Assembly (NCBI GenBank): GCA_015956445.1
Contig: WIUZ02000013.1
Location: 124,001 to 188,000 of the forward strand
Length of the DNA: 64,000 nt
Direction: 5' to 3'
From: Thelephora terrestris
Lineage: Eukaryota; Basidiomycota; Agaricomycetes; Thelephorales; Thelephoraceae
The notes beneath the pieces were generated by a model. The model searched no databases and was not told the origin of the DNA. It saw only the letters and a list, made by a program, of their open reading frames with translations. Positions within the stretch are counted from its first letter, which is position 1. Each line of letters begins with the position of its first letter. The position numbers were made by a program, and so were the translations under genes. Shown piece by piece: positions 26,912 through 59,417 of this stretch.

Positions 26912-28201
26912 TGTCAGCGTGCTGAATTTTACCCTCTTTTTGAACCATTTCTACACCCAACTTTCGCTCACTTTCCTTACCTATCCCCCTTTCTTATCTT
27001 ATCAGTTTCTCCACTCACGACTCACACGTCACCAAAGAACACGGACAAGGACACAGATGATATTACATGGCCACACCCATGACGAAGACACAAGACGACC
27101 AACCGACAGAGTTGAATCCGCACGGACTCTATGGACAAAGACTAAGGCGCACAAACCCTAGTCATCAAGACCTGGTCTGCCAGTACTCCTCAGCACTGGC
27201 AACCTCCTCCTCCGTCCCCTCCGAGGCACTCTCGATGGTTTCCTCATTGACCATCTCGACAACCCGAGCTTCCTCCAGACAATGAGCTACGGCCAACTGT
27301 ACTTCGGCGCGAAGGCGGCTCCTCGCTGAATCGACCATAGTCTGATCCCGAGTCCTCTGAGCTGACCAACCCTCCACTCTCTCGGTCAGTTGAGCCACCA
27401 GGCGTACGGCCTCCACTGCACGCTGGACCGACAAGAGCATAAGGTTTGTTAATCCGTTCACGTCCACGGACTCCACGGGGATTAGCTCGCTGCGATCCAG
27501 GCGACACCGCAACATCGTCGCGTCGGAATAAGACGGTGGATTCGATGTCTCCTCCCTGTTGGACGGTGTCGGGATTACTGGGACACATGCGATGGGCTGG
27601 ATGACGAGCACCACTGTAAGGAACCCATTGACGAGCACGGATGGAACATTGTCCACGCACCGGAGAGATCGAAGGAGGCAGAACCGGAACGGCCACCTCG
27701 TTCTCCCCTGCGTACTCCGACTCCGGCGAACTACTAACCGGGTTGACTGCCGTCTCCTCCGAAGTCTCATGAACGACCTCCTCCCCGCCATCGGCATGAA
27801 CTGGCGTGTGGTACGAACCCTCTGAGGCTAGCGGGACGTCAGCAGACAGGTCAAATATGTCAACCGGCATCCCGAACCTACAGGGGAAGCCATCCTGTCC
27901 GGAATTGACTCGTCCTCGGACTCGTCGCGAACCGCTGCCACCGAACGAGTACGGCAATGGCACAACCGCTCGCTCATGGACTCGACTCGAGCTCCCAGCA
28001 GTGGCAAGGCGTCGTCCAACGTATCAACCTAGAAGTGGAATGAGTTCCCTCAGTTAAACCCAGGGGAACATCACGCCAACCTTGGTGTCCAGCTCATTCA
28101 GATCCCTTCTATGACGGTTGAGCCGTCGGTCTACCTCGATCAGGTCCTTCTGAACGGTGTTGTTCCGTTCTTTCAGTGACTCCACCAGACAGTTGTGTTC
28201 T

Positions 28202-29154
28202 CACTGGGGGCAAGGGGTCAAATACCCGGTGGGTACATGCTGAATACATTGTGATCACAGTCAAAAAGTGATCACAATGTGCCCAGTGGGGAAATTTTGA
28301 ATACATTCAAAATGTACCTGGCCATGTGAACCCAATGTGCCCAGTGGGCACATTTTGATTGCGATCACAATGTACCCATCAATGTGATCTCAATGTGCCC
28401 ACTGGGGACATTTTGATTGTGATCACAATGTACACATCAATGTGATCTCAATGTGCCAGCTGTGCACATTTTAATTTCTTTCACAATGTTCCCATCAATG
28501 TGTTCCCAATGTACCCAGCTCATTACATAATAGTTTCTTTCACAATGTTGTCCACAATGTGTCCAGCATGTGGCTGAGCCACTCATTCAAAATTCTTTCA
28601 CAAAGTATCCAGTGATGTGTCTAGAATGTGTACAGCCATACACATAGTGATTTCTTTGAAAGTTCATGATGAAATTGAACAATATTGTGATTACATTGTG
28701 ATTACTTCAAAAAGAACCCCCTGGGAACATTATGGACACATCACTGGATAATCTTTGAAAGAATTTTGAATGAGTGGCTCAGCCACATGCTGGACACATT
28801 GTGGACAACATTGTGAAAGAAACTATTATGTAATGAGCTGGGTACATTGGGAACACATTGATGGGAACATTGTGAAAGAAATTAAAATGTGCACAGCTGG
28901 CACATTGAGATCACATTGATGTGTACATTGTGATCACAATCAAAATGTCCCCAGTGGGCACATTGAGATCACATTGATGGGTACATTGTGATCGCAATCA
29001 AAATGTGCCCACTGGGCACATTGGGTTCACATGGCCAGGTACATTTTGAATGTATTCAAAATTTCCCCACTGGGCACATTGTGATCACTTTTTGACTGTG
29101 ATCACAATGTATTCAGCATGTACCCACTGGGTATTTGACCCCTTGCCCCCAGTG
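28202..29154. mobile_element. H1: CACTG inverted-repeat element, family A, duplication TCT
   Basis: It begins CACTGGGGGCAAGGGGTC and ends with the exact inverse. Arms of about 400 bp pair with each other around a central part of about 150 bp that does not. It is 953 bp, the same length as H5. TCT flanks both sides. It sits in the coiled-coil exon of E5. It has no coding capacity. CACTG ends with 3-bp duplications fit a non-autonomous CACTA (CMC/EnSpm-type) element. Confidence 0.92.
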
Positions 29155-29722
29155 TCTTCACGCATCGCCAGCATCTCGCACTCAAACGTCACACGAAGCG
29201 TGTCGTTCATCAGGAGGAGCGTCTTCTTGGTATCTAGCATCTCCGAGTACATCCGGCGAGCATCGTCCTTCACCTCCTTCACCTCGTGTTTCAGCCACTC
29301 GTTCTACAAGCCAATCAGTGTTATCCCACAAGTGGGATGCACAGATCGGCTCACCGCTTTCTGTTCCGTTCGCAATAGAAACCAGAGATGGTGACCAATG
29401 GCAGCTGTGTAGTGCTGAGAGCGGGTAGCTCCAGGCCACCTTCCTTCGCCATTCCCTAGGTCGTAGATTCCCATCCGCAGAAGACCCCACAGCGATGAAG
29501 CCACAGGAGTCTCCCACAGCATGCGCAACTCGGTATTGAACGTCACCCCACGCATCAACTCTTGCAGTTTGTGGTCGATCAAGTTGTGATACCACAACTC
29601 GTCGTCCATGGTCAAGTAGTTGGGAGGTTTAGCGATCGACGCCTCCAGTTGCCGAGCATCCACTTTGTTGGCGGCTGCGAAGATCTATGAAAGCGATGTC
29701 AGTCAAACGCCAGAACCGGTGT

Positions 29723-31087
29723 CACTGGGGGCAGGGGTTGGTTTACTGAGTCAGTAAACTGTGAGTAAATCACAAGTAAATGGAAAAAGAACCCAGCCAA
29801 ATACTTGCCTGGCAAGCACAAAGCAAATTCACAATTTACTGAGCCAATTTACCAGCAATTTACTGGGTTCAGTATGCACTCAGTATGTTTGCAGTTTACT
29901 GGGTCATGTGACCACAGTTTCCCCATTAGGTAAACCTCGGAAAATTTCACAATTTCCTGAATAAATTTACCTGCAATTTACTGAGCAACTTGCCCAATCA
30001 GTATGTTTTTAATTTGCTGAGTGGTTTGATCACGGTTTACTGGACTCAGTAAATTGGAAAAAAACCAAACTGGTTTACTGACGACGTCCCTGATTGGTCA
30101 ATTTGAAAAATAACCGAAAATTTACCTGGACGTGTCATTGTCAGTAAACTGCAAGTTTTCTTTCAGTAAATTGGAAATACACGTCAGGTAAACTGGGAAA
30201 ACACGTGATGATTTGATCGTGGTTTACTGGACTCAGTAAATCAGAAAAAAACCTAACCAGTTTACTGACAATGTACCTGATTGGCTAATTTGAAAAAAAC
30301 TCGAAAATTTACCAGGACGTGTCTTTATCAGTAAACTGCAAGTTTTCTTTCAGTAAATCGCAAGTACACGTAAAGTAAACCAGAAAACACGTGTAAACTG
30401 TAAGTAAATTCAAAGTTTATGTGTTTTCTGGTTTACTTTACATGTACTTGCGATTTACTGAAAGAAAACTTGCAGTTTACTGATAAAGACACGTCCTGGT
30501 AAATTTTCGAGTTTTTTTCAAATTAGCCAATCAGGTACATTGTCAGTAAACTGGTTAGGTTTTTTCTGATTTACTGAGTCCAGTAAACCACGATCAAATC
30601 ATCACGTGTTTTCCCAGTTTACCTGACGTGTATTTCCAATTTACTGAAAGAAAACTTGCAGTTTACTGACAATGACACGTCCAGGTAAATTTTCGGTTAT
30701 TTTTCAAATTGACCAATCAGGGACGTCGTCAGTAAACCAGTTTGGTTTTTTTCCAATTTACTGAGTCCAGTAAACCGTGATCAAACCACTCAGCAAATTA
30801 AAAACATACTGATTGGGCAAGTTGCTCAGTAAATTGCAGGTAAATTTATTCAGGAAATTGTGAAATTTTCCGAGGTTTACCTAATGGGGAAACTGTGGTC
30901 ACATGACCCAGTAAACTGCAAACATACTGAGTGCATACTGAACCCAGTAAATTGCTGGTAAATTGGCTCAGTAAATTGTGAATTTGCTTTGTGCTTGCCA
31001 GGCAAGTATTTGGCTGGGTTCTTTTTCCATTTACTTGTGATTTACTCACAGTTTACTGACTCAGTAAACCAACCCCTGCCCCCAGTG
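29723..31087. mobile_element. H2: CACTG inverted-repeat element, family B, duplication TGT
   Basis: It begins CACTGGGGGCAGGGGTTGG and ends with the inverse. The two arms, each about 670 bp, pair along almost the whole 1365 bp, leaving a small loop near 30,405. The arms are filled with TTTACTG and its complement CAGTAAA. TGT flanks both sides. It lies in the first intron of the E5 gene. Open frames inside it are mirror images of each other and are not genes. Confidence 0.92.
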
Positions 31088-32169
31088 TGTGCGCGTGACA
31101 ATGCGCCTTTCGATAGCTGGGATATGCCACATTGGCGTTCGGCAGGAAGTAACCCTTGTTTTGCACAGAGCGCGGATCTGCAGACTTGATAGTGGCAGTG
31201 CTGTTCTCAGCACGGAAGACACGGTTGGAGATCATAGGCATGATGAGATGAGTAGTTGGTGGGTGGAGTGTTGATTTGGGAAGAAGGGAGTTTGATGGAT
31301 CCAACAGCCGGTTCGCGCTACGCTTTATCCGACCATCAACAGTGCTCGCGCCCTATTTGCCATTGGATCAGTCCATTGTTTCACCGATCCAGACCCCCCC
31401 ATACATTCGCCTCGACATTCAAGCCCCACTTGGCCCCTTGTTGTCCCGATTGGACGAGCTGACGCGTCGTCCTCTATTGGTCAGTCTTCACATGTGATAT
31501 TGTTCTTTGTCATTCCTTTCCCACACCATGTCATGACCCCTTTCTTGTTTTCTCACGAACCCTGACCCATTAGTCATTCCTTTGTCGTTTCTATTCTATG
31601 TTCCGGGCCGCTTACTGTTCTGGCTTACCCTCGGCCCTTCTTTGCTCTGAGTTATTATTAGATAGGGTTATCTCTGTCCCAGCCACTCTCCTATATAAGT
31701 ACCAGTAGAGTAGCTGAGGATTCCCTATCTTTGATATCTCGGGAAGTCCTCTTCTCCTTGTAGCATCGGTGTATTTGCTGCAGGCCACTGAAGAGCTTGT
31801 CGAGTAACTCCTTGAATTGTTCGCTCTCCTCTCTCACTCAGTCTTATTCTTTAACCGGTGTTTGAAGCTAGCTCGGACATGACATCGGGTTATGCACTGC
31901 TCTTTAGGATAAGTCAACAGTTTGAGTCGCCATCCTCGGGCTCTTGTTATCGCCCTCAGAAGACGATAGGGGTTAACCTGATAGAGGCTCGGTATCACTG
32001 TTGTGAATTCGGACAACCTACCGGAGAACGCTCGTCCCTTGCGTTTGGACCACGTATTATTTGGGTGGATATTGGGAAGTCGTTCCCCCATTGCCCCATT
32101 TAGTCTTGTTGGCTGGAGTGTTACTCGCCAACAGCACTGGTGTCTGACGGGCGAAGAGTGGCCCTGACA

Positions 32170-34088
32170 GTCATCGAACGTGGCCAGAATCGACAGCAAA
32201 AGCTAGAGAGCATTATAGCGTGGCACTTCCATCATGCGATGCAGTTGTTACCGTTGATGCTGCAAGCTGCGCTGTTCTTCCTCGGCTTTGCCGTTCCCTT
32301 GTCTCTCGTGGATATCAACACAACCATTGCTTTTGTTGCACTTGGTCTGACGTCATTCGGTGTTCTCTTCCACATTTCCCTCGTTATTGTCAGAGCAGCT
32401 GACAAGAGCTGTCCATACCAAACGTCCGCATCATACCTTCTTCGGCATCTGAGGCCACAATTCCCAAGCATAGTTCACTCTCTGAAGGTGAACAATCAAT
32501 TGCACCTTACTAGGGTCTTTTTGGGACTAGACGAAAACACACATTTGGTGGACCTCCAGTGTGTCTCATGGATTCTCTGGACATCCCTGGACAAAACTGT
32601 CCACTTGTCAACCTTGCGGCACCTTTTATCAATACCGACGCTTGACGGAATTGAGCCCACCCTCGCCTTAACTTGCTTCTACATCTTCACCAGCTGTGCT
32701 GGCCTCCGAAATAACAGGGTGGTGATTGTACAAGGGTGGGAACAACTTGCGATGGTGTCCGCCAGGTGTCTATTCCGTACACTGGAGCACCACTTCTCGA
32801 GCACGGATCCTCGGACCCCAAGTGTGCTGGAAGACCTTCGCCGACGTTACAACAGGGTCTTCCCTTTCAATGCTGATTTTAGGGGTCTTCCATACTACTT
32901 TACGATGGTTAGGATCCATGCTTGGGCCCATAGACATCAGGAACCCCGGGATGTACGGTGGGACAACTATACACCACCCGCTCAGGAACACATTCCGTTT
33001 GCACGGCACATGGTTGAGGTTGCTCAGGAAGAGTATCAAGGAAGAAAGGTACCATGCTGGATCCTCCGCTTTGCAATGCATTCCCTATCCCAGGACCCCC
33101 CCTCTCCAGCCTCCGTTATTGCTGACTGTTTGAAGATCGTAGCGATTGACCTGGACTTGGATGCTTCAAAGATCACGGTCTTGAACGAAAGGTGGGCTTA
33201 AAATTCATGAATCCACGCTTTTCTGACCCTGAGCCAGAGAACGGGTGGACTACTTCTCGAGCTGGATAATTCAGAGAATTAGAACTATGGTCGAGGCCAA
33301 CGATCCGGCCCCGATTCTTTTCAAGTGCAAGACCATCAGCGCACTAGTCCCACATGCAGTCTTTTTGGGGCGGCTTGGGCAACAAGAAATGGTCGATGCG
33401 ATTTCACTTGCTGTCAAAGCTACAACAGATGGGAGGTTCATATGGCGCTGCATTTGGCCGTATACCGCTACATTTTTTGCTGAACCTAATCCTCCATCCG
33501 TAAACTTGATCGTCACACTCGCATCGCCCTACATGCTCTGGGATAAGTTGCAGGATGGAATGGCAGTCGCTAGGTGGGCGGATGCAGCCTCAGAAGTCCC
33601 ATATACAGAGCAGGTTGGCCAGAATGTAGCCGAGGCCCTATTGCAGATTGTGGCTATTGATTCCCTACGACCACACATTCCTCTCAACACCTGGGCGCTT
33701 TTGAACAACAACCCTCCCCTCCCACCGGTATGCCGGGCGCGGTTCATGGGAACCAGGGTTGACACTGTCCACCATGTCTGAGGGCTTGAAAATACCGAGA
33801 TACTCAAATCATACTTCCTTCTTGTTTGGACGGAGTGGAACTACATTCTCCCTCGCGGTCAAAAAGGAAATGGAGATATCAATCCGCGAGGACTTTAGAG
33901 GAACCAACATGGAGTGTCACCGGATAGATCTCATCGACCGGTTGGAACACATTCTCGGGCAGTTGGATCAGGGGTTGGATTACTTCAACTGGCATCACCA
34001 GATGATCAACGAATATCATGTCTTGCGGGCAAAGAGAGAATATGGGAAGCTGAGGGAGGTATTGCGGGAGGTGCATGAAGGGCAGTGA
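32170..34088 (+). pseudogene. DUF6535 membrane protein gene, 3' part (resumes after E5)
   Basis: Coding resumes with GTC ATC GAA CGT at 32170: IERGQNRQQKLESIIAWHFH, followed by two membrane spans (LPLMLQAALFFLGFAV and FVALGLTSFGVLFHISLVIV) and SCPYQTSASYLL, all standard DUF6535 landmarks. Exon 4 ends at 33191 (GTGGGC donor); exon 5 starts at 33238 and reads ERVDYFSSWIIQRIRTMVEAND. Near the 3' end the frame has an in-frame TGA at 33779-33781 (between VHHV and GLENTEILKSYFLL) and, further on, a frame change before EISIREDFRGTNME; the conserved end LDQGLDYFNW...YGKLREVLREV stops at 34088. The gene is therefore dead both from the E5 insertion and from later decay. Confidence 0.85.
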
Positions 34089-34443: not shown

Positions 34444-35303
34444 TTATCTGTTGCGACCGGGAGGTCGCTTTGGTGCAATACCCACTAAAACCCCCGTTTT
34501 TCCACACCAGTTTCTTGTTTCGTGTAGGTTGTTATGGAGGCATTTATTCCATGTCGTAAGGACAAGAGCTGGCTGGATGGCTTTCTTTTTGAATATTTTC
34601 GTGTTCGTCCTGATGCTGTCCATTTTTAGGCGTTGGTTCATCGTTTGGAGCCATTTGTTATGGATTTCGGATTCTGAGTGGTTTTTCGATGGATCTTTGT
34701 TCCAAGTTATGGTTCTCTCGCATCTAATTTTCCATATCATGTACATAGATTCGGATATGATGATTCTAAATAAACGGTTGAGGCCGGGGTCGGGTTTGTC
34801 TTTGTTGTTTTTTATGTTTGAGAGGCTGCATCCGATCAGTGCTCCGTAGTTGGTTGGGAGGGGGGTTTGTGATCTCTTCGTCCAGAGTTCGTTGGCGAGT
34901 GACCAGATCTTTGATTGTCCTGGTGCGTCACATTCTGTGATGATGTGTTCCATCGTTTCTTCAACGTCGCAGTGGCTGCAGGTGCCTCTTTGTTCGTAGT
35001 TCGGGATGTTCCTCCAGAATTTTCCGATCTTGAACGCGTTGTGGATGCTTTTCCATATGAATTCTTGTATTTTCTTTGGGAAGTCTTGGTGGCGCGTCGA
35101 TCTCCAGATTGTTTCGTGGGAGGGGGCCGAGCTGTGGTAGGCGATGGCGCAGGCTTGTATCCTGTTGAGGTTTAGTTCTGTGTTGTTGCGCTGGGGGGGG
35201 GCGGTTGGCGTTCTTGATGCCTCGGTAGAAGTCTTTTTGGGAGAGGGCGGATAGTTTTGCGCCGGAGGGGATCGTGTTTGTGGGGGGGGGGGGAGGGGGG
35301 CAT
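34444..35303 (-). pseudogene. LINE ORF2, C-terminal part with Cys/His knuckle
   Basis: Minus-strand reading gives GAKLSALSQKDFYRGIKN, then LNRIQACAIAYHSSAPSHETIW, FIWKSIHNAFKIGKFWRNIP, a C-x2-C...H-x4-C knuckle (CSHCDVEETMEHIITEC) and a basic tail ending PPGRNR at 34444. This is the usual end of agaricomycete LINE ORF2. A long C run near 35,180-35,300 breaks the frame. The piece joins to 38606 across E1 and its GGCAT duplication. Confidence 0.8.
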
Positions 35304-38300
35304 TGTCAGGGCCACTCTACCCCAACAACTACCAGTGCACTGAGCCGACTCCGCAGAGTACTCACTAGTCCGACTAGCTTGTGAGAGAACGATCACGTCT
35401 CTATTCTTCCGGTAGGTTGTCCGAGGTCACTGCAAGTCAGGTCGAAATCCTAAAGAGAAACCCAACCTAAACCGTACTTCGTTCGGTTTAACTAACAAGG
35501 GTTGATCCCTACAACAGGATTGATGACTCCACCAGTTGATCGACTGGACGCTCGAGGTGTTCTAATATGACTGCGGAGAGTCTATAGTTACGAGGCGCAG
35601 TTGACGCGCAGAGCGGGAGGGAGAGCAGATGGGGGATGTCTTGGATCAAACAAGAAACTCTGACTTGGCCTTAACTGCAACTGGGCTGAGAAGGGCAGAG
35701 GATTTCCTGAGGTAACAAAACTAAGGTACTACGATACAGCCACAGTTGCTACTTATACTAAAGGAGTGGCCATGACGTCAATACCCTAATATACCCTTAT
35801 CAAGTCCAGAACAAAGGGAGATAAGGAGTGTGAGAACGCTAAGTAAGGGAAGCGAACAAAGGTGACGCGTGGGAGAATAAAGGACAAAGGGCCTTACTAG
35901 CGTGTGAAGGGTTGCATAAAAGATAAGGAATGTCCGCATGAAACATAGGGGTAAAGATAACACTAGTCCTAAAAGAAAAAGGGGCATGGGATCATGAAAG
36001 TTCGTACCTGAGGATCACACCCAAGGGTCAGGTGGCAATCTCCCTTTACATAGTTGTACCAGCGGATTCGGGAGTAGAGCCATGCAAACATCCCTTGTTG
36101 TCTGTAGGCGGTAACAGCATCACGGACTAGTGGCAACCTCACATAGGTCCGAGCATGAGGAGCACAGGCCTAGACTCATGGGACATGAGGGATTACAGAT
36201 TCGCCGGCGTTTCACGCTAACGGCTACTCCACATGCGCTGAGCTAACCAGAAGTATCCTAAGGCGATGCTTCCGAATAGCGGCGAGTCCTTCCTCCGGTT
36301 AGGAGACTGTGATGTGACTGTCCACGTGTGTGATCAGGGTCCAGGGTTGATCGTAATCGTAAAGTCATGAGGGGTCGTAAAAGGGGTTCGTGATGTCATA
36401 AAGGGGTCATCAGGGTCTTGAGACCTATTTTTAGTGCGCGCGCGTTCTAGGCGTTCCGGAACGAAGTTCTTCCAAGGCCGTCCCGCGGGCCGAGGTGTCA
36501 GCTTGATGTAGTAAGCCAACGATGATGGTACAGGGGCGGAAGTTGATGTGACCCGGACCAATGAGGTTCGTCGAGGTAGGTCACGTGAAGGATCACCGAT
36601 CTAGGCTATAAGAAGGACGTCTTCTTGGAGCCATCCTTGATCAGCAACACCAGCAACTTCCCCATCATCTTACCAAAACATGTCTTTCCCCAACAACCAT
36701 ACCTACAAAGTCGCCAACGGCATCTCCACCATCTCTCGCATCGACCGTCGTGCCGCCGCTCGCAAGACCTACGCCTGTGCGGCTGGGACTCCCTATACCA
36801 CGGATGACCAGGTATGGGGGAGACCTAGAGCTTAGTAGTTTGCACTAACGCCTTCCTCTAGGTAGAGGAACATTCTTTTGGCGTTGATGTCAAACTAACG
36901 GCTTCTAGATCTTGGAGGTCGTCACGGAAGTGGACGCCGAACGTCTCAGGGAGACGATGCCTCATTTGATGGGGTTGACCTGGGACGACGAGCTCTGGGT
37001 CCGTACGATCATCGCCGAGAAGGTGGCCTTCCGAATGAGGGGTAGGTTCGGGGAGCTGGAGCATCCGATCAAGAAGGAGCTCTGGTACACCCTGCAAAGG
37101 GGAATCTACGATCAGGACCTGTTGGAGCACGGAGCGACCGTTCCTCGGGCCGTCCGTCATGCCACTGCCGCCACGTCATTGTTGTGGTCGCTCGTTCGGG
37201 AGGGGGAGAGCAAGGTAGGTTCTCCGTTTGAATATTCGAGTATGACTCTCGACTAATCAAACTGCCTAGGTTGAGCGTTTGGAGCGCGAAGTGAAGGAGG
37301 CGAAGGCAGACGTCCTTCGTCTGTCTGCGGAGGGTCTTCAGATGAAGGAGACCTTGGCAGCCTTCCAGCAGGGGACGAACGAGGCGTTGGAGGCAATGGT
37401 CGCCAACCATCAAGAGTTGATCGCCGGGTTGAAGGTTAGGGATAACAACATTAAGGGGGCGTTGGCCAGGAGGGATGAAAAGGTAATGCCGCTTTCATCA
37501 TTTGAGCAAAATGATGGAAGCTGACATTTCCTAGACCGAAGAACTCGAGAACGTGGTGGCCGTGTTGACAGCGCAGGTTGAGTCCTTGCAGGACAAGACC
37601 TGCAACTGTAAGGAGGGTCCAAAATTGGTTGGTCAGGGGACCGCCAATGTTCCGTTCGAGCTGGAGTACGCCGACGAGGTGGTACTCCCCTCTCCTAATC
37701 CGTCATCCTACGCGACGCCTCCGATTGAGAACGCGGTTCCCGTTCCGACTCCAGGTCCGGCTTCCACCTTGGCCGCTTCCGACAAGGAGAACTGTGGGCG
37801 TTGCGTCTTGCAGCCGATCCATCAGTTGGTGAAGATCGAGGGTGAGGTCATGGAGGTTGACCGAGCTGAAGATGCTCCGAGGGTCGCCGAGGTACGTCCG
37901 GTGACTAAGGGGCAACGTTGCAAACGTTCTCGACGCCGTCCTGCTCATCGCATGGCTCCATCGGCTTACCCATACCCGCGTCCAGTTGAGTCAGATGGTG
38001 ACCAGTCTGGTCGAGATAGGGGACGAGAGTTCCGCTATCGGATCAACCGTCCCTACCGACAGGTCGAGTCGGAGATCCAGCTTCGCCACCAGCTTCGACT
38101 CGCAAGACAGGATTCCGCCCAGGGGTCCGATGAGGGAGACGGAGGGTCGCTTGCCGACTACGTCGACAGTACTGTCGAGCAGTCACCCGGTGATGGAGAT
38201 GTGGGACCAGGTGTTCAGCAGTTCGGTGACATCTGGGAGGCTGATCGGTCCGCTCGAAGGTATCTCTTCCTATCGGCTTGAACTAGTCGTTCAGCTGAGT

Positions 38301-38605
38301 GCCGAAGATGGTGACGCCATGTTCGGGGAGGTTCTTGCGGGGAGGGGCCAGCACTACGATCGCCGGGATGGACAGTTGATGACCTTCAGGCCTGCCGTAG
38401 ATAGAGTCGACTTTTGAGGACGTTGTAGAAGCATTTGTATAGCCAGGTTGTTTCGTATTGCCGTGAATGTATGCGCGTTTGTGTGTTTTGAATGATTGGT
38501 GTGAAGGATAAGGAGTGTGAAGCATTCAAACATAAGAAGTGGTAAGAAGAATTCGAAGAAAGAGCGTGTTATAAAAAGTTTTAAAAATACCATGTTCCTG
38601 ACAGG
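35304..38605 (+). mobile_element. Element E1, alpha family: TGTCAG ends, 5-bp duplication GGCAT
   Basis: It starts TGTCAGGGCCACTCTACCCC and ends CCATGTTCCTGACA, with GGCAT on both sides (35299-35303 and 38606-38610). The length is 3302 bp and no other element lies inside, so it is the cleanest alpha copy. The first 1.37 kb are noncoding leader with the CCGGTAGGTTGTCCG motif near 35,410, shared with beta elements; the gene follows at 36680. The last 200 bp are not repeated at the left end, so these are not long terminal repeats. It is inserted in the LINE RNase H / C-terminal region. No transposase or polymerase is visible. Confidence 0.88.
36680..38281 (+). CDS. Spliced coiled-coil protein of element E1 (alpha family)
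   Basis: Four exons read 36680-36811, 36909-37214, 37270-37482 and 37535-38281, all in phase 0, giving 465 residues. Exon 1 encodes MSFPNNHTYKVANGISTISR and ends TTDDQ. Exon 2 has LTWDDELWVRTIIAEKVAF and ELWYTLQRGIYDQDLLEHGA. Exon 3 is a heptad-like coiled coil (LEREVKEAKADVLRLSAEGL). Exon 4 starts with more coiled coil, then VESLQDKTCNCKEG, an ELEYADEVVLPSPN linker, an Arg-rich patch RCKRSRRRPAHRMAPSA and an acidic end. No catalytic motif is visible. The basic patch and coiled coils suggest nucleic-acid binding and oligomer formation, but that is inference. Close copies lie in E2 and E3. Confidence 0.75.
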
Positions 38606-39385: not shown

Positions 39386-39423
<38 letters not shown>

Positions 39424-39763: not shown

Positions 39764-40078
39764 GCGGTTAGCTCTTTGAAGGTAGATGCGTGTTTCGCAT
39801 ACATCCATCCCTGGTCCTCCCATTTTTCCAGGTTTTTTGTGAGTCCGTTGATCACATATTTCGAGTCGGTTTTGATGGTGATGGCTTGGTTGGGGGGGGG
39901 GGTGGTTTGTAGGACGTGTAGGACCGCAAATAGTTCTCCAGTCTGGTTGGATTGCAGCGGGCTGGGGACTCTGAAACCGATGTTTCTGGGGTCGTTTGCA
40001 CTGTACCAGACGCCACATCCAGCTTGTGCGGTGGTTTCTCCGTTGTTGATGCACGAGCCGTCGGTGTAGACCGTGATA
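39764..40078 (-). pseudogene. LINE RNase H domain, N-terminal piece
   Basis: The minus strand reads VYTDGSCINNGETTAQAGCGVWY, then SNQTGELFAVLHVLQ and TIKTDSKYVINGLTKNLEKW, the three strands and catalytic D, E and D positions of RNase H. It ends STFKELTA where the solo LTR enters. Upstream it is cut by H3 with an ATA duplication. Confidence 0.9.
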
Positions 40079-47477: not shown

Positions 47478-48033
47478 TGTCAGGAACATGGTATTTTTAA
47501 ACTTTTTATAACACGCTCTTTCTTCGAACTCTTCTTACCATCCCTTATGTTTTGAATGCTTCACACTCCTTATCCTTCATTCCCATCATTCAAAACACAC
47601 AAACGCGCAATTCATTCACGGCACTACGAAACGACATGGTTATACAATGCTTATAAACGGTCCATCAAAAGTCAACTCGATCTACAACAGGCCTCATGGT
47701 CATCAGTGTTCCATCCCGGAGATCGAAGAACCGGCCCCTGCTTGCAAGGAGCTCTCCGAACATGGCGTCCCCATCTTCCACGCTCAACTAAACCTCTAGT
47801 TCAAGCCGATAGGAAGAGATGCCTTCGAGCGGACCGATCAGCCTCCCAGATGTCACCGAACTGCAGAACACCTGGTCCCACATCGTCATCACCGGGTGAC
47901 TGCTCGGCAGTGCTGTCGACGTAGTTGACAAGAGACCCTCCGTCTCCCTCGTCGGACCCCTGGGCGGAATCCTGTACTGCGAGTCGAGTGAGGTGCCTTC
48001 GCTGGATCTCCAACTCGACCTGTCGGTTGGGAC

Positions 48034-51000
48034 GTGTCAGGAACATGGTATTTTTAAACTTTTCATAACACGCTCTTTCTTTGAACTCTTCTTACCATTT
48101 GTTGTGTTTGAATGCTTCACACTCCTTATCCTTCACTCCAATCATTCAAAACACACAAACGCGCATACATTCACGGCAATACAAAACAACCTGGCTATAC
48201 AAATGCTTCTACAACGTCCTCAAAAGTCGACTCTATCTACGGCAGGCCTGAAGGTCATCAACTGTCCATCTCGGAGATCGTAGTGTTGGCCTCTCCTTGC
48301 AAGGACCTCCCCGAACATGGCGTCACCGTCTTCGGCACTCAGCTGAACGACTAGTTCAAGCCGATAGGAAGAGATGCCTTCGAGCGGACCGATCAGCCTC
48401 CCAGATGTCACCGAACTGCTGAACACCTGGTCCCACATCTCCATCACCGGGTGACTGCTCGACAGCACTATCGACGTAGTCGGCAAGCGACCCTCCGTCT
48501 CCCTCATCGGACCCCTGGGCGGAATCCTGTCTTGCGAGTCGTAGCTGGTGGCGAAGCTGGATCTCCGACTCGACCTGTCGGTAGGGACGGTTGACTCGAT
48601 AGCGGAACTCTCGTCCCCCACCTCGACCAGAGAGGTCACCATCCGACTCAACTGGTCGAGGGTAAGGATTAGCCGACGCGGTCATACGATGAGCAGGACG
48701 GCGTCGAGAGCGTTTGCAACGTTGCCCCTTAGTCACCGGACGTACCTCGGCGACCCTCGGAGCATCTTCAGCTCGGTCAACCTCCATGACTTCATCCTCG
48801 ATCTTCACCAACCGATGGATCGGCTGCAGGACGCAGCGCCCACAGTTCTCCTTGTCGGAAGCGGCCAGAGTGGAAGCCGGAGCCGGAGTCAGAACGGGAA
48901 CCGCGTTCTCGATCGGAGGCGTCGCGTAGGACGACGGGTTAGGCGATGGCAGTACCACCTCGTCGGCGTACTCCAACTCGAACGGAACATCGGCTGTCCC
49001 CTGACCAACCAATTTGGGACCCTCTTTACAGTTGCAGGTCTTGTCCTGCAAGGACTCGACCTGCGCCGTCAACACCGCCACCACGTTCTCGAGTTCTTCG
49101 GTCTAAAGGAAATCTCTCAGTCATTGCATAAACCTGCAAAGGCTGAAAGGACCTTTTCATCCCTCCTGGCCAACGCCCCCTTAATGTTGTTGTCTCGGAC
49201 CTTCAGACCAGCGATTAACTCTTGATGGTTGGCGACCATTGCCTCCAACGCCTCGTTCGTCCCCTGCTGAAAGGCAGCCAAGGTCTCCTTCAATTGAAGA
49301 CCCTCTGCTGATAGACGAAGGACGTCTGCCTTCGCTTCCTTTACCTCCCGCTCCAATCGTTCAACCTAGGCAGTCTGGTTAGTCGAGAGTCATACTCGAA
49401 TATTCAGACAGAAAACCTACCCGGCTTTCTCCTTCTCGTACGAGCGACCACAAGAGACTAGTGGAAGCGGTAGCATGGCGGATGGCCCGAGGAACGGTCG
49501 CCCCGTGCTCCAATAGGTCTTGATCGTAGATCCCCCTCTGCAGGGTGTACCAGAGCTCCTTCTTGATCGGATGCTCCAACTCTCCGAACCTACCCCTCAT
49601 CTGGAAGGCCACCTTCTCGGCGATGATCGTACGGACCCAAAGCTCATCATCCCAGGTTAACCCCTTCAAATGAGGCATCGTCTCCCTGAGACGTTCGGCG
49701 TCCACTTCTGTGACGACCTCCAAGATCTAGAAGCCGTTAGTTTGACATCAAACGCCAAAAGAACGTTCCTCTACCTAGAGGAAGGCGTTAGTGCAAACAC
49801 ACGAAGCTCTAGGTCTCCCCCATACCTGGTCATCCGTGGTATAGGGAGTCCCAGCCGCACAGGCGTAGGACTTGCGAGCGGCGGCACGACGGTCGATGCG
49901 AGAGATGGTGGAGATGCCGTTGGCGACTTTGTAGGTATGGTTGTTGGGGAAAGACATGTTTTGGTAAGATGATGGGGAAGTTGCTGGTGTTGCTGATCAA
50001 GGATGGCTCCAAGAAGACGTCCTTCTTATAGCCTAGATCGGTGATCCTTCACGTGACCTACCTCGACGAACCTCATTGGTCCGGGTCACACCAACTTCCG
50101 CCCCTGTACCATCATCGTTGGCTTACTACATCAAGCTGACACCTCGGCCCGCGGGACGGCCTTGGAAGAACTTCGTTCCGGAACGCCTAGAACACGTGCG
50201 CACTAAAAATAGGTCTCAAGACCCTGATGACCCCTTTATGACATCGCGAACCCCTTTTACGACCCCTCATGACTTTATGATTACGAACAACCCTGGACCC
50301 TGGAACACACACGTGGGCACGGGGTATCAACATTTGGACACTGTGCTTCTAATCGGATAGTAACCCTATCTGATCTAGTTGTGCTTTGGAAGCAGAGTAG
50401 GCCCGAGCCGAGAACGGCGGCCGAAGAATATAATCCCTGGTGCCACTTAGGAAGAACAATATTCCCAGGTGCTATGCCTAATCAAGACTGGGTCTGATCA
50501 AGCGATTACGGCTGCAACTCCCAGGTTACTGCCTGTCCGTTGGTATCATACCACCTACCGACAACAAGGGATGTGTAGAGTTCCTTCGATCTCTAGCCAA
50601 TCACAGAAGCTTAGAGACGGTGCTCACCTGACCCTTGGGTGTGGTCTAGATTCAGGTACGAACTTTCATGACCCATGCCCCTTTTTCTTTTAGGACTAGT
50701 GTTATCTTCACCCCTATGTTTCATGCGGACATTCCTTATCTTTTATGCAATCCTTCACACGCTAGTAAGGCCCTTTGTCCTTTATTCTCCCACACGTCAC
50801 CTTTGTTCGCTTCCCTTACTTAGCGTTCTCACACTCCTTATCTCCCTCTGTTCTGGACTTGATAAGGGTATATTAGGGTATTGACATCATGGCCACTCCT
50901 TTAGTATAAGTAGCAACTGTGGCTGTATCGTAGTACCTTAGTTTTGTTACCTCAGGAAATCCTCTGCCCTTCTCAGCCCAGTTGCAGTTAAGGACAAGTC

Positions 51001-51357
51001 AGAGTTTCTTGTTTGATCCAAGACATCCCCATCTGCTCTCCCTCCCGCTCTGCGCGTCAACTGCGCCTCGTAACTATAGACTCCCAGCAGTCATATTAGA
51101 ACACCTCGAGCGTCCAGTCGATCAACTGGTGGAGTCATCAATCCTGTTGTAGGGATAAACCCTTGCTTGTTAAACCGAACAAAGTACGGTTTAGGTTGGG
51201 TTTCTCTTTAGGATTTCGACCTGACTTGTAGTGACCTCGGACAACCTACCGGAAGAATTGAGACGTGATCGTTCTCTCACAAGCTAGTTGGACTAGTGAG
51301 TACTCTGCGGAGTCGGCTCAGTGCACTGGTAGTTGTTGGGGTAGAGTGGCCCTGACA
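48034..51357 (-). mobile_element. Element E3, alpha family: TGTCAG ends, duplication GGACG
   Basis: It lies in minus orientation within E2, with 5' end at 51357 and 3' end (TGTCAGGAACATGG) at 48034; GGACG flanks it at 48029-48033 and 51358-51362. At 3324 bp it is nearly the same length as E1 and close to it in sequence. It holds no further insertion. It carries a full-length gene on the minus strand, followed by the 200-bp 3' region that matches the E1 end. Confidence 0.9.
48356..49957 (-). CDS. Spliced coiled-coil protein of element E3 (alpha family)
   Basis: It starts MSFPNNHTYKVANGISTISR at 49957 and follows the E1 exon plan: a 44-codon first exon ending TTDDQ, an exon with LKGLTWDDELWVRTIIAEKV, a coiled-coil exon (LEREVKEAKADVLRLSAEGL), and a last exon with VESLQDKTCNCKEG, RCKRSRRRPAHRMTASA and QDSAQGSDEGDGGS ending ARRHLFLSA at 48356. 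Differences from E1 are scattered and mostly single residues (for example QMRG for RMRG, STSLLWS for ATSLLWS), which suggests both were inserted fairly recently. No catalytic motif is seen; a structural or nucleic-acid-binding role is only inferred. It sits 1.4 kb from the 5' end of the element. Confidence 0.72.
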
Positions 51358-51532
51358 GGACGGTTGACCCGATATCGGAATCCTCTTCCCTCGCCTCGAC
51401 CAGACTGGTCACCATCCGACTCAACTGGTCAAGGGTAAGGATTAGCCAATGGAGCCATGCAATGAGCAGGACGGCGTCGAGAGCTTTTGCAACGTTGCCC
51501 CTTAGTCACCGGACGTACCTCCCACTGGGGGC

Positions 51533-52023
51533 AAGGGCACCTGGAATCAGTGATTACATCTTGATTGCATGGTGAGCTCATGTGCACTTTTCAATGATTG
51601 TAATTGCCGATTCCAGGTTGATTACATTTCAAATGTTACCTTGACATGTAATCCAACCAATGTCCACCAATTCCATCTGAAATGTTCTCAACAAATGTTT
51701 TTGGAATGTTTTTGACCTGTCGGCAAAAATGATACTGCAATGTAATCAGCATGTTGTTTAATTATCCGAGATGTAATCTAAATGTGCTCAAAAACATGAG
51801 ATTTTTTCACAATGTACCCAGTGGGCATATTCAGGAAACATTGCTTGGGAACATCTTGAGGAAAGTTCAAATGGAGTTGGTGGCAACAGTTGAATTACAT
51901 GTCAAGGTAACATTTGAAGTGTAATCAACCTGGAATTGGTGATTACAATCATTGAAAAGTGCACATGAGCTCACCATGTAATCAAGATGTAATCACCAAT
52001 TCCAGGTGCCCCTGCCCCCAGTG
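51533..52023 (+). mobile_element. H4: CACTG inverted-repeat element, family D, duplication TCC
   Basis: It begins CACTGGGGGCAAGGGCACC and ends with CCCCTGCCCCCAGTG. About 140 bp at each end pair; the middle is single copy, so orientation is defined (same as H7, opposite to H6). TCC flanks both sides. It is inserted in the last exon of the E2 gene. GATTACA/TGTAATC words recur in it. Confidence 0.9.
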
Positions 52024-55000
52024 TCCGAGACCCTCGGTACATCTTTGGCTTGGTCAACTTCCATGACCGCATCCTTGATCTTGACAGCTGACTGATCGGC
52101 TGCAGCAAGCAACACCGACAGTTCTCCTTGTCGGACTCGGCCAAAGTGGAGGCCGGAGCCGGAGTGGGAACGGGTTAGGCGATGGGAGTACCACCTTGTC
52201 GGCGTACTCCAACTCGAACGGAATGTCGGCTGTACCTTGCCCAACCAACACAGGACCTTCCTTGCAGTTGCAGGTCTTGTCCTGCAAGGACTCGACCCGC
52301 GCCGTCAACACGGACACCAAATCCTCGAGTTCCTCCATCTAGAAAGTGTCAGCTTCCCTCATTTTGTCTTCGAGATGAGGAAAGCTACCTTATCGTCCCT
52401 CTTATGCAAGGCCCCTTTGATGTTATTGTCCCAAACCTTCAGGCCGGCAATCAACTCTTCATGGTTAAGCACCATCTTTTCCAACGCCTTGTTCGTCCTC
52501 TTTTGGAAGTCGGCCATGGTCTCCTTCATCAACAGACCCTCAGCGGACAGATAAAGGACATCTGCCTTTGCCTCCTTCACCTCGTGCTCCAATCATTCAA
52601 CCTAGGCAGTTTGGTTAGTTGAGAGTCATACTCGAATATCCAAACGGAAAACCTACTCGGCTTTCCCCCTCTCAAACGAGCAACCACAACAGCGTGGTGG
52701 AAGCGGTGGCATGGCGGACGGCCTGAGGAATGGTAGCCCCATGCTCCAACAGGTCCTGATCATAGATCCCCCTCTGCAGGGTGTACCAGAGCTCCTTCTT
52801 GATCGGATGCTCCAACTCCCCAAACCTACCCCTCATTTGGAAGATCACCTTCTCGGCGATCATTGACCGGACCCAGAGCTCATCATCCCAGGTCAACCCC
52901 ATCCAATGTGGGATCGTCTCCCTGAGACATGCGGTGTCCACCTGCTTGACGATCTCCAAGATCTATTGGAAAAGAGTTAGAAGTAACATCAAGGTTATTT
53001 CAAACTCCCCCCCACCTGTTCATCGGTGGTGTAGGGAACCCCCGCCTCATTGGCGTAGGTCTTGCGGGCGGTGGCACGGCAGTCGATACAGGAGATGGTG
53101 GAGATGCCGTTGGCGACTTTGTAGGTGTGGTTGTTGGGGAAAGACATTTTGGTAAGATGATGGGGAAGTTGCTGGTGTTGCTGATCAAGGATGGCTCCAA
53201 GAAGACGTCCTTCTTATAGCCTAGATCGGTGATCCTTCACGTGACCTACCTCGACAAACCTCATTGGTCCGGGTCACATCAACTTCCGCCACTGTACCAT
53301 CATCATTGGCTTACTACATCAAGCTGACACCTCGGCCCGCGGGACGGCCTTGGAAGAACTTCGTTCCGGAACGCCTAGAACGCGCGCGCACTAAAAATAG
53401 GTCTCATGACCTTGACAACCCCTCTACGAACCCCTTTACGACCCTGATGACACATTTATGACATCACGATAACAACCAACCCTGGACCCTGATCACACAC
53501 GTGGACAGTCACATCACAGTCTCCTAACCAGAGGAAGGAATCGCCGTTATTCAGAAGGAGTGCCTTAGACTCCTTTTGTTTAGCTCAGCGAATGTGGAGT
53601 AGCCGTTAGCGTGAAACACCGGCAAATCTGTAATCCCTCATGCCCCATGAGTCTAGGCCTGACCTCCTCATGTTCGGACGTATGTTGAGGTTGCCACTAG
53701 TCCGTGATGCTGTTACCGCCTACAGACAACAAGGGATGACACATGGCTCTACTTGCGAATCCAGCTGGCAAAGCCAAGTAAAGGGAGATTGCCACCATAC
53801 CCTTGGGTGTGATCCCCAGGTACGAACTTTCATGACCCCATGCCCCTATTTCTTTTAGGACTAGTGTTATCTTTAACCCTATGTTCCATGCGGACATTTC
53901 TTATCTCTTATGCAATCCTTCACACACTAGTAAGGCCCTTTGTCCTTTATTCTCCCACGCGTCATATTTGTTCGCTTCTCTTACTTAGCGTTCTCACACT
54001 CCTTATCTCCCTTTATTCGGACTTGATACGGGTATATTAGGGTATTGACGTCATGGTCACTCCTTCAGCATAAGTAGCAACTGTGGCTGTATCGTAGTAC
54101 CTTAGTTTTGTTACCTCAGGAAATCCTCTGCCCTTCTCAGCCCAGTTGCAGTTAAGGACAAGTCAGAGTTTCTTGTTTGATCCAAGACACCCCCATCTGC
54201 TCTCCCTCCCGCTCTGCGTGTCGACTGAGCCTTGTAACTATAGAACCCCAGCGTTCATATTATAGAATACCTCAAGTGTCCAGTTGATCACCTGGTGGAG
54301 TCATCAAACCTGTTGTAGGGATAAACCCTTTGTCAGGGCCACTCTTCGCCCTTCAGGTACCAGTGCTGTTGGTGAGTCGCAACTCCAACCAACAAGAAAC
54401 AATGGGGCAAAGGGGAAACGACTTCCCTATATCCACCCAAAGTCTACGTGGTCCAAAACGCGATGGAAGAGCGTTCTCCGGTAGGTTGTCCGAATTCACA
54501 GCAGGAGTGCCAAGCCTCTATCTGACAAATCCCTATCATCGTCTGAGGGCAGATGTAAGAGCCTGAGGATGGCGCCTCAAACTGGTGCTTGATCAAGAGA
54601 GCGACGAGGAACTCCTTTTCGTAAGTGCGTTCGCCGATTCTTGATACAAGGCCGAGAGAGAGAGGAGAGCGAACGTGTTCAAGGAGTTACTCGATAAGCT
54701 CTTCAGTGGCCTACAGCAAATACACCGATGCTGCAAGGAGAAGAGGACTTCCCGAGATATCAAAGATGGGGAATCCTCAGCTACTCTACTGGTACCTATA
54801 TAGGAGAGTGGCTGGGACAGAGATAACCCTATCTAATAATAACTCAGAGCAAATAAGGGCCGAGAGTAAGCCAGAACAGTAAGTGGCCCGGAACATAGAA
54901 TAGAAATGATAAAGGAGTGACTAATGAGTCAGGGTTCGTGAGAGAACAAGAAAGGGGTCATGACGTCGTGTGGGAAAGGAATGACAAAGGATAATATCAC

Positions 55001-55818
55001 ATGTGAAGACTGACCAATGAGAGGGCAACGCATCAGCTCGTCTGATTGGGACAACAAAAGACCGAGTGGGGCTCGAATGTTGAGGCGAATGTATGGAGAG
55101 TCTGGGTCGGTGAAACGATGGACCGGTCCAATGGCGAATAGTGCACGGGCGCTGTCAATGGTCGGATAAAGCGTAACGCGAACCGGCCGTTGGATCCATC
55201 AAACTCCCTTCTTCCCAAATCAACAATCCCACCAACCACTACTCATTCACCATGCCCATGATCTCCAATCGTGTCTTCTGTGCTGAGAACAGTACCGCCA
55301 CCATTGAGTCTGCGGATCCTCGATCCGTAGGGAATAAGGGTTACTTCCTGCCGAACACCAATGTGGCCTACCCCAGCTATTGAGAGGTGCGACGTCACGT
55401 GTCGCCGATTGCTGACAACTACTGACATTGCATTCGCAGATCTTTGCAGCTGCCGACACGGTGGATGCCTGCCAGTTGGAGGCTACGATTACCAAGCCTC
55501 CCAACTACCTGACCATGGACGACGAGTTGTGGTTCCACAACTTGATCGACAACAAGCTGCAAGAGTCGATGCGTGGGGTGACGTTCAACACCGAGTTGCG
55601 TATGCTTTGGGAAACTCCTGTGGCGTCAGCGTTGTGGGGGCTTCTGCGGATGGGAATATACAACCTGGGAAATGGCGAAGGAAGGTGGCCCGGAGCTACT
55701 CACTCTCAGCACTACACAGCAGCCGTTGGTCACCGTCTCTGGTTCCTATTGCGGACAGACCAGAAAGCAGTGAGTCAATCTGTGCATCCCGCTTGTGGGA
55801 TAACACTGATTGGCTTGT

Positions 55819-56771
55819 CACTGGGGACAAGGGGTCAAATACCTGGTGGGTACATGCTGAACACATTGTGATCACAGTCAACAAGTGATCACAATGTGCC
55901 CAGTGGGGAAGGTTTGAATACATTCAAAATGTGCCTGGCAATGTGAGTCCAATGTGCCCAGTAGGCACATTTTGATTGTGATCACAATGTACCCATCAAT
56001 GTGATCTCAATGTGCCCACTGGGGACATTTTGATTGCGATCACAATGTACACATCAATGTGAACTCAATGTGCCTGCTGTGCACATTTTAATTTCTTTCA
56101 CAATGTTCCCATCAATGTGTTCTCAATGTACCCAGCTCATTACATAATAGTTTCTTTCACAATGTTGTCCACAATGTGTCCAGCATGTGGCTGAGCCACT
56201 CATTCAAACTTCTTTCACAAAGTATCCAGTGATGTGTCTAAAATGTGTACAGCCATACACATAGTGATTTCTTTGAAAGCTCATGGTGAAATCAAACAAT
56301 ATTGAGATTACATTGTGATTACTTCAAAAAGAACCCCCTGGGGACATTATGGACACATCACTGGGTAATCTTTGGAAGAATTTTGAATGAGTGGCTCAGC
56401 CACATGCTGGACACATTGTGGACAACATTGTGAAAGAAACTATTATGTAATGAGCTGGGTACATTGAGAACACATTGATGGGAACATTGTGAAAGAAATT
56501 AAAATGTGCACAGCAGGCACATTGAGTTCACATTGATGTGTACATTGTGATCGCAATCAAAATGTCCCCAGTGGGCACATTGAGATCACATTGATGGGTA
56601 CATTGTGATCACAATCAAAATGTGCCTACTGGGCACATTGGACTCACATTGCCAGGCACATTTTGAATGTATTCAAACCTTCCCCACTGGGCACATTGTG
56701 ATCACTTGTTGACTGTGATCACAATGTGTTCAGCATGTACCCACCAGGTATTTGACCCCTTGTCCCCAGTG
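55819..56771. mobile_element. H5: CACTG inverted-repeat element, family A, duplication TGT
   Basis: It begins CACTGGGGACAAGGGGTC and is 953 bp, the same length as H1 and very close to it throughout. TGT flanks both sides. It is inserted in an intron of the E4 gene two bases before the acceptor AG, so the second TGT copy recreates TGTAG directly before the exon. Confidence 0.92.
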
Positions 56772-57112
56772 TGTAGAACGAGCGGCTGAAGCGCGAGGTG
56801 AAGGAAGCGAAAGACGATGCTCGTAGGATGTACTCGGAGATGTTGGACACCAAGAAGACTCTCCTCCTAATGAACGACACTCTTCGGGTGACGTTCAAGA
56901 GTGAGATGCTGGCGATGTGGGAGGAACATAATCGACTGGTCGAGTTGTTGAAGGAACGAGATGACACCATACAACAGGACCTAATTGAGGTCGACCGACG
57001 GCTCAACCGTCATAGAAGGGCCCTGAATGAGCTGGACACCAAGGTTGGTGCGACTTCTCCTGGTCTTTAACCGAGAGAGCTCATGCCACTTCTAGGTCGA
57101 CACGCTGGATGA

Positions 57113-57613
57113 CACTGGGGGCAGGGGCACCTGGAATCAGTGATTACATTTTGATTACATGGTGAGTTCATGTGCACTTTTCAATAATTGTAATTGCCGA
57201 TTCCAGGTTGATTACATTTAAAATGTTACCTTGACATGTAATCCAACTGTTGCCACCAACTCCATTTGAAATTTCCTCAAGATGTTCCCAAGCAATGTTT
57301 CCTGAATGGGCCCAGTGGGTACATTGTGGAAACATCTCATGTTTTTGAGCGCATTTAGATTACATCTCGGACGATTGAAGAACATGCTGATTACATTGCA
57401 GTATCATTTTTGCCAACAGGTCAAAAGCATCTCAGAAACATTTGTCGAGAACATTTCAAATAGAATTGGTGAACATTGGTTGGATTACATGTCAAGGTAA
57501 CATTTGAGATGTAATCAACCTGGAATTGGCGATCACAATTATTGAAAAGTGCACATGAACTCACCATGTAATCAAGATGTAATCACCAATTCCAGGTGCC
57601 TCTGCCCCCAGTG
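57113..57613 (-). mobile_element. H6: CACTG inverted-repeat element, family D, duplication TGA
   Basis: It begins CACTGGGGGCAGGGGCACC and is 501 bp. TGA flanks both sides. The unpaired centre is inverted compared with H4 and H7. It lies in an exon of the E4 gene just after a TTCTAG acceptor. Confidence 0.92.
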
Positions 57614-57987
57614 TGACGCCTTGCCGTTGCTGGGCGCTTGGGTCGAATCCATGAGTGAGCGACTGTGTCACTGCCGCACTCGTTCGGTGGCAGCGGTTCG
57701 TGACGAGTCCGAGGACGAGTCAATTCCGGACAGGATGGCTTCCCCAATAGGTCGGGATGCCAGTTGACATATTTGACCTGTCTGCTGACATTCCACTAGC
57801 CTCTGACGGTTCGTATCGTACGCCGGCGCATACCGATGGCGGGGAAGAGGTCGTTCGTGAGACGTCCGAAGAGACGGCAGTCAACCCGGTTAGTAGTTCT
57901 CCCGAGTTGGAGTACGTGGGGGAGAACGAGGTGGCCGTTCCGGTTCCGCCTCCGTCGATCTCTCCGGTGCGTGGACAGTGTTCCATT

Positions 57988-58488
57988 CACTGGGGGCAGG
58001 GGCACCTGGAATCAGTGATTACATCTTGATTACATGGTGAGTTCATGTGCACTTTTCAATGATTGTAATCACCGATTCCAGGTTGATTACATTTCAAATG
58101 TTACCTTGACATGTGATCCAACCAATGTCCACCAATTCCATTTGAAATGTTCTCAACAAATGTTTCTGGGATGCTTTTGACCTGTCAGCAAAAATGATAC
58201 TGCAATGTAGTCAACATGTTCTTCAATCGTCTGAGATGTAATCTAAATGCGCTCAAAAACATGAGATGTTTTCACAATGTACCCACTGGGCACATTCAGG
58301 AAACATTGCTTGGGAACATCTTGAGGAAATTTCAAATGGAGTTGGTGGCAACAGTTGGATTACATGTCAAGGTAACATTTGAAATGTAATCAACCTGGAA
58401 TCAGCGATTACAATCATTGAAAAGTGCACATGAACTCACCATGTAATCAAGATGTAATCACTGATTCCAGGTGCCCCTGCCCCCAGTG
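57988..58488 (+). mobile_element. H7: CACTG inverted-repeat element, family D, duplication ATT
   Basis: It begins CACTGGGGGCAGGGGCACC and is 501 bp. ATT flanks both sides. It lies in the last coding part of the E4 gene, 374 bases from H6. Confidence 0.92.
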
Positions 58489-59417
58489 ATTCATGCCCGT
58501 CGATGGGTTCCTTACCCTGGTGCTCGTTGTCCAGCCCATCGCATGTGTCCCAGTAATCCCGACGCCGTCCGCCAGGGTGGAGACATCGAGTCCACCGTCC
58601 TATTCCGACACGACAATGTTACAGTGTCGCCTGGATCGCGGCGAGCTAATCCCGGCGGAGTCCGTCGACGCGAACGGATTAACGAACCTTACGCTCTTGT
58701 CGGTCCAGCGTGCAGCGGAGGCCGTACGCCTGGTGGCTCAACTGACCGAGAGAGTGGAGGGTTGGTCAGTCCAGAGGACTCAGGATCAGACTATGGTCGA
58801 TTCAGCGAGGAACCGCCTTTGCGCCGAAGTTCAGCTGGCCGTAGCTCATCGTCTGGAGGAAGCTCGGGTCGTCGAGATGGTCGACAAGGAAGTCGTCGAG
58901 AGTGCCTCGGAGGGGACAGAGGAGGAGGTTGCCAGTGCTGAGGAGTACTGGCAGACCAGGTCTTGACGACTAGGGTCTGTACACCTTAGTCTTCGTTCAT
59001 AGAGTCCGTGCGGATTCAACTCCGTCGGCTAGTCGTCTCGTGTCTTTATCGTATATGCGCCCTCTGTAATATCATCTGCGTCTTTGTCTGTGTTCCTTGA
59101 TGACGTGTGAGTTGTGATAAGAGAAACGGACAAGATAGAAAGGGGTATAGGTAAGGAAAGTGGGCGAAAGTTGGGTGTGAAAATGGTTCAAAAAGAAGCT
59201 AAAAATTCAGCACGCTGACACCCTTGCTTGTTAAACCGAACCAAGTACGGTTTAGGTTGGGTTTCCCTTTAGGATTTTGACCTGACTTGTAGTGACCTTG
59301 GACAACCTACCAGAAGAATAGAGACGTGATCGTTCTCTCACAAGCTAGTTGGACTAGTGAGTACTCTGCGGAGTCGGCTCAGTCACTGGTAGTTGTTGGG
59401 GTAGAGTGGCCCTGACA

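Follow-up and report, generated by a model that had tools for sequence, protein, structure and literature searches.

Five single-unit elements with TGTCAG/CTGACA ends, 5-bp target duplications and a spliced, selectively constrained gene from Thelephora terrestris

What kind of mobile element has the ends of a retrotransposon, duplicates 5 bp of its target, and carries within a single unit a spliced gene that selection has preserved? This question is raised by a 64,000-nucleotide stretch of the basidiomycete Thelephora terrestris (GenBank assembly GCA_015956445.1, contig WIUZ02000013.1, positions 124,001 to 188,000 of the forward strand; hereafter the window, to which all positions refer), where five related units, E1 to E5, are found (Table 1). 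We show herein that these units were inserted precisely, that they are flanked by 5-bp duplications, that inverted repeats at their ends do not exceed 6-7 bp, and that they carry one spliced gene under selection. We further infer DNA movement, an enzyme acting in trans and a role for the encoded protein: tentatively, E1 to E5 could be single-unit elements that move as DNA by means of a DDE-class, integrase-type enzyme supplied in trans, with the selected gene serving the element.

All five units begin with TGTCAGGGCCACTC, end in CTGACA and are bounded by an exact 5-bp target-site duplication (TSD), as the initial annotation of this DNA had claimed. The TGTCAGGGCCACTC start has five exact matches and one further match with 2 mismatches, against 0.63 expected by chance at up to 2 mismatches. 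When TGTCAG and CTGACA were paired at spacings of 0.3-13 kb, with ends and duplications read on the + strand, an exact 5-bp duplication flanked 6 of the 126 pairs, compared with an expectation of 0.12 (126/1024), and duplications of 4, 6, 7 or 8 bp flanked none of the 126. The sixth of these 5-bp pairs, which would end E1 at 30139, was rejected because that position falls within a nested insert with CACTG..CAGTG ends. A broader scan for TGTnnn..nnnACA with an exact 5-bp TSD gave 18 pairs, compared with 1-10 in six shifted controls; six of the 18 are the TGTCAG pairs, and the other 12, half of which lie in palindromic CACTG elements, were taken as chance or palindrome effects.

The empty sites were consistent for all three units for which an uninterrupted counterpart was available (E1, E3 and E4). 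Excision of E1 together with one duplication yields a 441-amino acid (aa) open frame; the four other offsets tried run into a stop at 109-175 aa. E1 sits here within an exon of a host gene of the DUF6535 type, and the profile halves on either side of it join at 128/129, the resumed half scoring 22.5 bits, just under the Pfam cut-off of 23.9. The sites of E3 and E4, both of which are nested in E5, match the uninterrupted E2. Since these three empty sites agree, the units represent real insertions. Two families of constant length had been proposed. Once nested inserts and their duplications are subtracted, the net lengths are 3300 bp (E2), 3323 bp (E3) and about 3213 bp (E5) in family 1, and about 2934 bp (E1) and 2926 bp (E4) in family 2. 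A correction concerns E5, in which E3, E4 and a further CACTG element are nested. The two families have their left tip and their protein in common. The left tips align along 36 columns and are identical in their first 15 bases, and the right ends have CTGACA in common together with a patchy A/T-rich similarity.

Ends of this kind are best accounted for if E1 to E5 are solo long terminal repeats (LTRs) of a retrotransposon that carries a gene in its LTR. All five copies have the TG..CA ends and the short target duplication expected of LTR-type elements (5 bp in fungal examples), the inverted tips measure 6-7 bp with no longer terminal inverted repeat (TIR), and the 5-bp duplications show no evident target motif. 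In these respects, and in being single units, the elements are like solo LTRs of Ty3/Gypsy or Copia retrotransposons, including fungal terminal-repeat retrotransposons in miniature such as Helenus. The conservation of the left tip between families, and the much lower conservation of the right side, is what U3 and U5 ends could show. A solo LTR by definition displays no second LTR, and this is the most ordinary alternative here, one that the initial annotation considered only briefly. The available part of PMC10886601 reports fungal solo LTRs flanked by 5-bp TSDs, and that of PMC12810828 describes solo-LTR insertions of TCN3, whose TSD is 5 bp, in a reporter gene of a basidiomycete. Against this explanation, a second LTR, an internal region or a paired unit accompanies none of the five copies in the window, and a self-BLAST of the window (matches of at least 100 nt) showed that neither end of any copy recurs as a direct repeat at the opposite end, which bears out the earlier statement that long terminal repeats are lacking. 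The units differ from ordinary solo LTRs in being some 3 kb long with a spliced, selected gene and no known two-LTR copy, and the open-licence literature searched gave no fungal example of an LTR of 3 kb that carries a selected multi-exon gene. Outside the fungi, the only parallel known to us is sag, which mouse mammary tumour virus carries in its LTR. Moreover, three shared introns, which would here have had to come through reverse transcription, persist in both families, which is unlikely if the genomic RNA is in the sense orientation relative to the gene. On balance, we regard solo LTRs as a serious possibility, if a somewhat doubtful one.

The Ginger transposons, to which the ends had also been compared, are alike in their TGTNR-type termini, and the Ginger2 elements TDD-4 and TDD-5 make 5-bp duplications. 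According to the available part of PMC10045372, target duplications measure 3-6 bp in LTR elements, 4 bp in Ginger1, and 4 or 5 bp in Ginger2; that of PMC2836005 gives TIRs of 40-270 bp for Ginger1 and 50-180 bp for Ginger2, with CCGG/CCGT or RTATAY as targets. In E1 to E5, however, the left and right ends of an element have only TGTCAG or TGTCAGG (6-7 bp) in common. Comparison of the left end with the reversed right end, taking 60 or 197 bases from the tip, brought out no longer inverted repeat, the best local matches lying within the range of 200 shuffles for all five copies. Because nothing beyond TGTCAG(G) is in common, Ginger in the form given in those parts of the published accounts is excluded; in addition, the five TSDs are unrelated sequences that fit neither CCGG/CCGT nor RTATAY, and Pfam recognized no integrase gene in the E2 gene model or in exon 2 of the five copies.

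Closer to the host in taxonomy, Kyakuja (KDZ) is an Agaricomycotina DNA transposon without TIRs and with a non-transposase gene, and DNA transposons of this group carry TET/JBP genes (PMC12730594, available part). Its CA..TG ends, 7-bp TSDs and KDZ transposase differ from the TG..CA ends and 5-bp duplications seen here, where none of the 126 pairs had a 7-bp duplication. PlavakaA, of the CMCT clade and likewise from Agaricomycotina, resembles the units in its TGT..ACA termini but makes 2-bp duplications and encodes a Plavaka transposase, and the other fungal lineages in the available part of the same source differ in ends, duplication length or transposase. A hAT reading based on CAGGG with an 8-bp TSD was rejected, as the 8 flanking bases differ between the two sides; Pfam found no hAT transposase in the cargo, with the ends of hAT5 (5-bp duplication) outside the comparison. 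The megB1 element of Tricholoma was set aside as a short, Alu-like element (available part of PMC10627285). No described family combining these ends with this protein was found in the open-licence literature searched.

As to the cargo, a single spliced gene of at least four exons had been reported, and the prediction agrees: four exons, with a probable fifth in family 1, and GT..AG introns between the exons of E2. The gene lies wholly inside the unit. Three phase-0 introns occupy corresponding places in both families, as read from E2, E1 and E4, the donor of intron 1 being GC in E1. Only E2 and E3 carry an apparently intact gene: exon 2 of E5 contains a stop, exon 1 of E4 ends with a TGA, and E1 has one nested insert in exon 3 and another in intron 1.

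The gene is real, and in each family its first half has evolved under purifying selection. The ratio of nonsynonymous to synonymous substitution (dN/dS; NG86) is 0.085 for E2/E3, 0.18 for E2/E5 over exons 1-3 plus a portion of exon 4 (0.13-0.30 exon by exon), and, for E1/E4, 0.098 in exon 2, where the compared piece extends two codons into the intron, and 0.066 in exon 3. Between E2 and E3, differences at the first, second and third codon positions number 4/3/22 in exon 2, 3/0/18 in exon 3, 10/6/29 in exon 4, and 1/1/6 in probable exon 5. Probable intron 4 differs at 0 of 49 positions between E2 and E3 and at 1 of 49 between E2 and E5, fewer than in the flanking exons, with one of these comparisons taking 38209-38257 as its bounds; an alternative use of both frames is possible. 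The alignment of E2 with E3 is a mosaic overall, in which regions of 98-99% identity are interspersed with others of 78-94%: about 98% over the initial 700 bp, 83% (182 gap columns) within 36001-36400, 99% between 36401 and the end of exon 1, and 90-94% across exons 2-5. This pattern suggests recombination among element copies or lineages.

A gene that is spliced and constrained as host genes are might also belong to a host gene family that became trapped between the ends of an element, with the host using the protein and the elements spreading it as cargo. Captured genes are known in fungal Helitrons, a precedent for this explanation. Exon 2, with its LTxDDELW core, is 34% identical between the families, and the orientation of the gene relative to the tips is nonetheless the same in both, as is the left tip, which argues for a long co-inheritance of gene and element. 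The window, moreover, holds no copy of the gene outside E1 to E5 (tblastn, E up to 1). A captured host gene therefore appears highly improbable.

The earlier description of the product as a coiled coil holds well for family 1 and less well for family 2. In exon 3 and the start of exon 4 of family 1, the 3.5-residue periodicity of ILMVFYW was reached by 0 of 2000 shuffles, or by 164 of 2000 when alanine was counted; in exon 3 of family 2 the ILMVFYW periodicity was weaker, being reached by 125 of 2000. Against Pfam, the E2 gene model gave eight sub-threshold matches, mostly to coiled-coil families (best E 0.0032), and exon 2 of the five copies gave one weak match (E5 up to its stop). In agreement with the initial annotation, no transposase, integrase, polymerase or helicase was recognized by Pfam in either set. 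A model of exon 2 built from the five sequences has five helices at low confidence (mean predicted local distance difference test score 60), and 91 residues of E2 exon 2 found no match in a sequence search of the PDB. Relatives were also sought in collections covering few or no fungal genomes: in viral contigs, 4 pattern stretches for the E2 protein query and 116 for the five-copy exon 2 alignment, and in genome contigs 14 for that alignment, none of which was confirmed; plasmids (tblastn, first 246 aa) and phages (blastn) yielded no relative.

That the coiled-coil protein itself does the mobilization, making E1 to E5 autonomous elements of a new kind, is suggested by its being the only gene recognized in the unit and by the purifying selection on exons 2 and 3 in all three pairs tested. 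No catalytic signature was found, however; the weak, sub-threshold Pfam matches are mostly to coiled coils, and exon 2 is modelled, at low confidence, as all-helical rather than as an RNase H fold. We consider this quite unlikely.

Between movement as DNA and solo LTRs, we lean slightly toward the former, since the small introns common to both families persist and copying through a sense RNA should easily lose small introns that hold nothing else. TIR-less DNA transposons such as Kyakuja provide a precedent in this fungal group. Movement as DNA accounts for the gene inside the unit, the conserved small introns and the purifying selection. An integrase-type enzyme of the DDE class would recognize the TGTCAG/CTGACA tips and join them to a target cut with a 5-bp stagger; it would be encoded outside the element and supplied in trans. 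Selection would maintain the spliced gene, with its helical domain, coiled coil, cysteine pairs and basic tail, for the use of its product to the element. This product would most likely act together with the missing enzyme, as an element-specific partner in DNA binding or assembly. Several observations weigh against this scheme. The ends look like those of an LTR, and solo LTRs with 5-bp TSDs are on record in fungi, as noted above; no transposase with matching ends was found in a search without fungal genomes; and, beyond the 6-7 bp tips, the two ends showed no common repeat to which a single transposase could bind. The cargo protein has no DNA-binding family above the Pfam cut-off, and the exon 2 model has no Foldseek match at E <= 0.001 in PDB or BFVD. 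Toward the C terminus, an excess of differences at third positions is absent in E2/E5 exon 5 (9/8/12 by codon position) and, in the frames tested, in the C-terminal half of E1/E4 (10/18/13, 7/9/9 and 7/3/4). It is unlikely that these units represent a new class altogether, namely a single-unit, TIR-less, integrase-style transposon whose one spliced coiled-coil gene encodes a dedicated mobility protein that has no kinship with any known transposase and acts alone or with a catalytic partner supplied in trans.

Both surviving readings are unusual. Movement as DNA would define a lineage that has retrotransposon-like ends, lacks real TIRs and carries a selected gene whose fold is new to the libraries searched; its partner enzyme could then be sought. 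Solo LTRs would mean that a fungal retrotransposon maintains, inside its LTR, a gene of several exons together with its introns, and would raise the question of how the RNA escapes splicing.

Table 1. Positions of the elements, their predicted exons, the interrupted host gene and the CACTG..CAGTG elements in the window.
Feature	Position	Strand	Description
E1	26912-32169	-	Family 2, 5258 bp, TSD GTCAT/GTCAT, two nested CACTG elements
E2	35304-38603	+	Family 1, 3300 bp, uninterrupted, TSD GGCAT, gene apparently intact
E3	48035-51357	-	Family 1, 3323 bp, nested in E5, TSD GGACG, gene apparently intact
E4	54331-59220	+	Family 2, 4890 bp, nested in E5, TSD CCCTT, three CACTG elements
E5	47478-59417	-	Family 1, 11940 bp with nested inserts, TSD TTCTG
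E2 exon 1	36680-36811	+	44 aa, start MSFPNNHTYK
E2 exon 2	36909-37214	+	102 aa, conserved helical domain
E2 exon 3	37270-37482	+	71 aa, coiled-coil segment
E2 exon 4	37535-38210	+	Coiled-coil end, CxC and CxxC cysteine pairs, basic stretch, PAHRM
E2 probable intron 4	38211-38259	+	49 bp
E2 probable exon 5	38260-38417	+	Ends DRVDF, then stop
E3 exon 1	49826-49957	-	Exon 2 49421-49726, exon 3 near 49153-49365, exon 4 from 49102
E4 exon 1 start to exon 2 end	55252-55769	+	Exon 2 from 55440, exon 3 from 56777
E1 exon 2	29355-29684	-	Exon 3 from 29303
DUF6535-type host gene, 5' part	26613-26911	+	Profile 30-128, interrupted by E1
DUF6535-type host gene, resumed part	32175-33201		Profile 129-172, after E1
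CACTG..CAGTG element in E1	28202-29154		3-bp TSD TCT
CACTG..CAGTG element in E1	29723-31087		3-bp TSD TGT
CACTG..CAGTG element in E5	51523-52023		3-bp TSD TCC
CACTG..CAGTG element in E4	55819-56771		3-bp TSD TGT
CACTG..CAGTG element in E4	57113-57613		3-bp TSD TGA
CACTG..CAGTG element in E4	57988-58488		3-bp TSD ATT
Seventh CACTGGGG-ended element	59571-60868		Exact 3-bp duplication, outside E1, E4 and E5

The CACTG inserts nested in the units belong to a set of seven CACTGGGG-ended elements, mostly long inverted repeats with exact 3-bp duplications, six of which lie within E1, E4 and E5. They resemble CACTA/EnSpm-type elements; the available part of PMC12810828 gives CACTG ends and 3-bp TSDs for CNIRT6 of Cryptococcus. 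Distinct from this set is a near-perfect inverted repeat at 43372-44445, with AATGACCCACC tips and 488-nt arms that are 99% complementary.

The window has a G+C content of 0.50 and short introns; these traits, with the DUF6535-type gene and the STAND/TPR and reverse transcriptase frames described below, would fit an agaricomycete. It gave no match in Rfam (gathering cut-offs) or tRNA scans. Pieces of reverse transcriptase, RNase H, zf-RVT and endonuclease lie at 45179-47236, 39679-40287, 34447-35313 and 60834-61331, the zf-RVT and endonuclease pieces scoring below the Pfam cut-off; all are read as remains of long interspersed nuclear elements, and the reverse transcriptase, RNase H and zf-RVT frames lie outside E1 to E5. 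A 1.37-kb direct duplication (17139-18505 and 22738-24099) has 94.7% identity between its copies, the first of which matches the Pfam Tle1-like phospholipase catalytic domain, and a STAND-type NTPase frame with tetratricopeptide repeats occupies 3227-5428.

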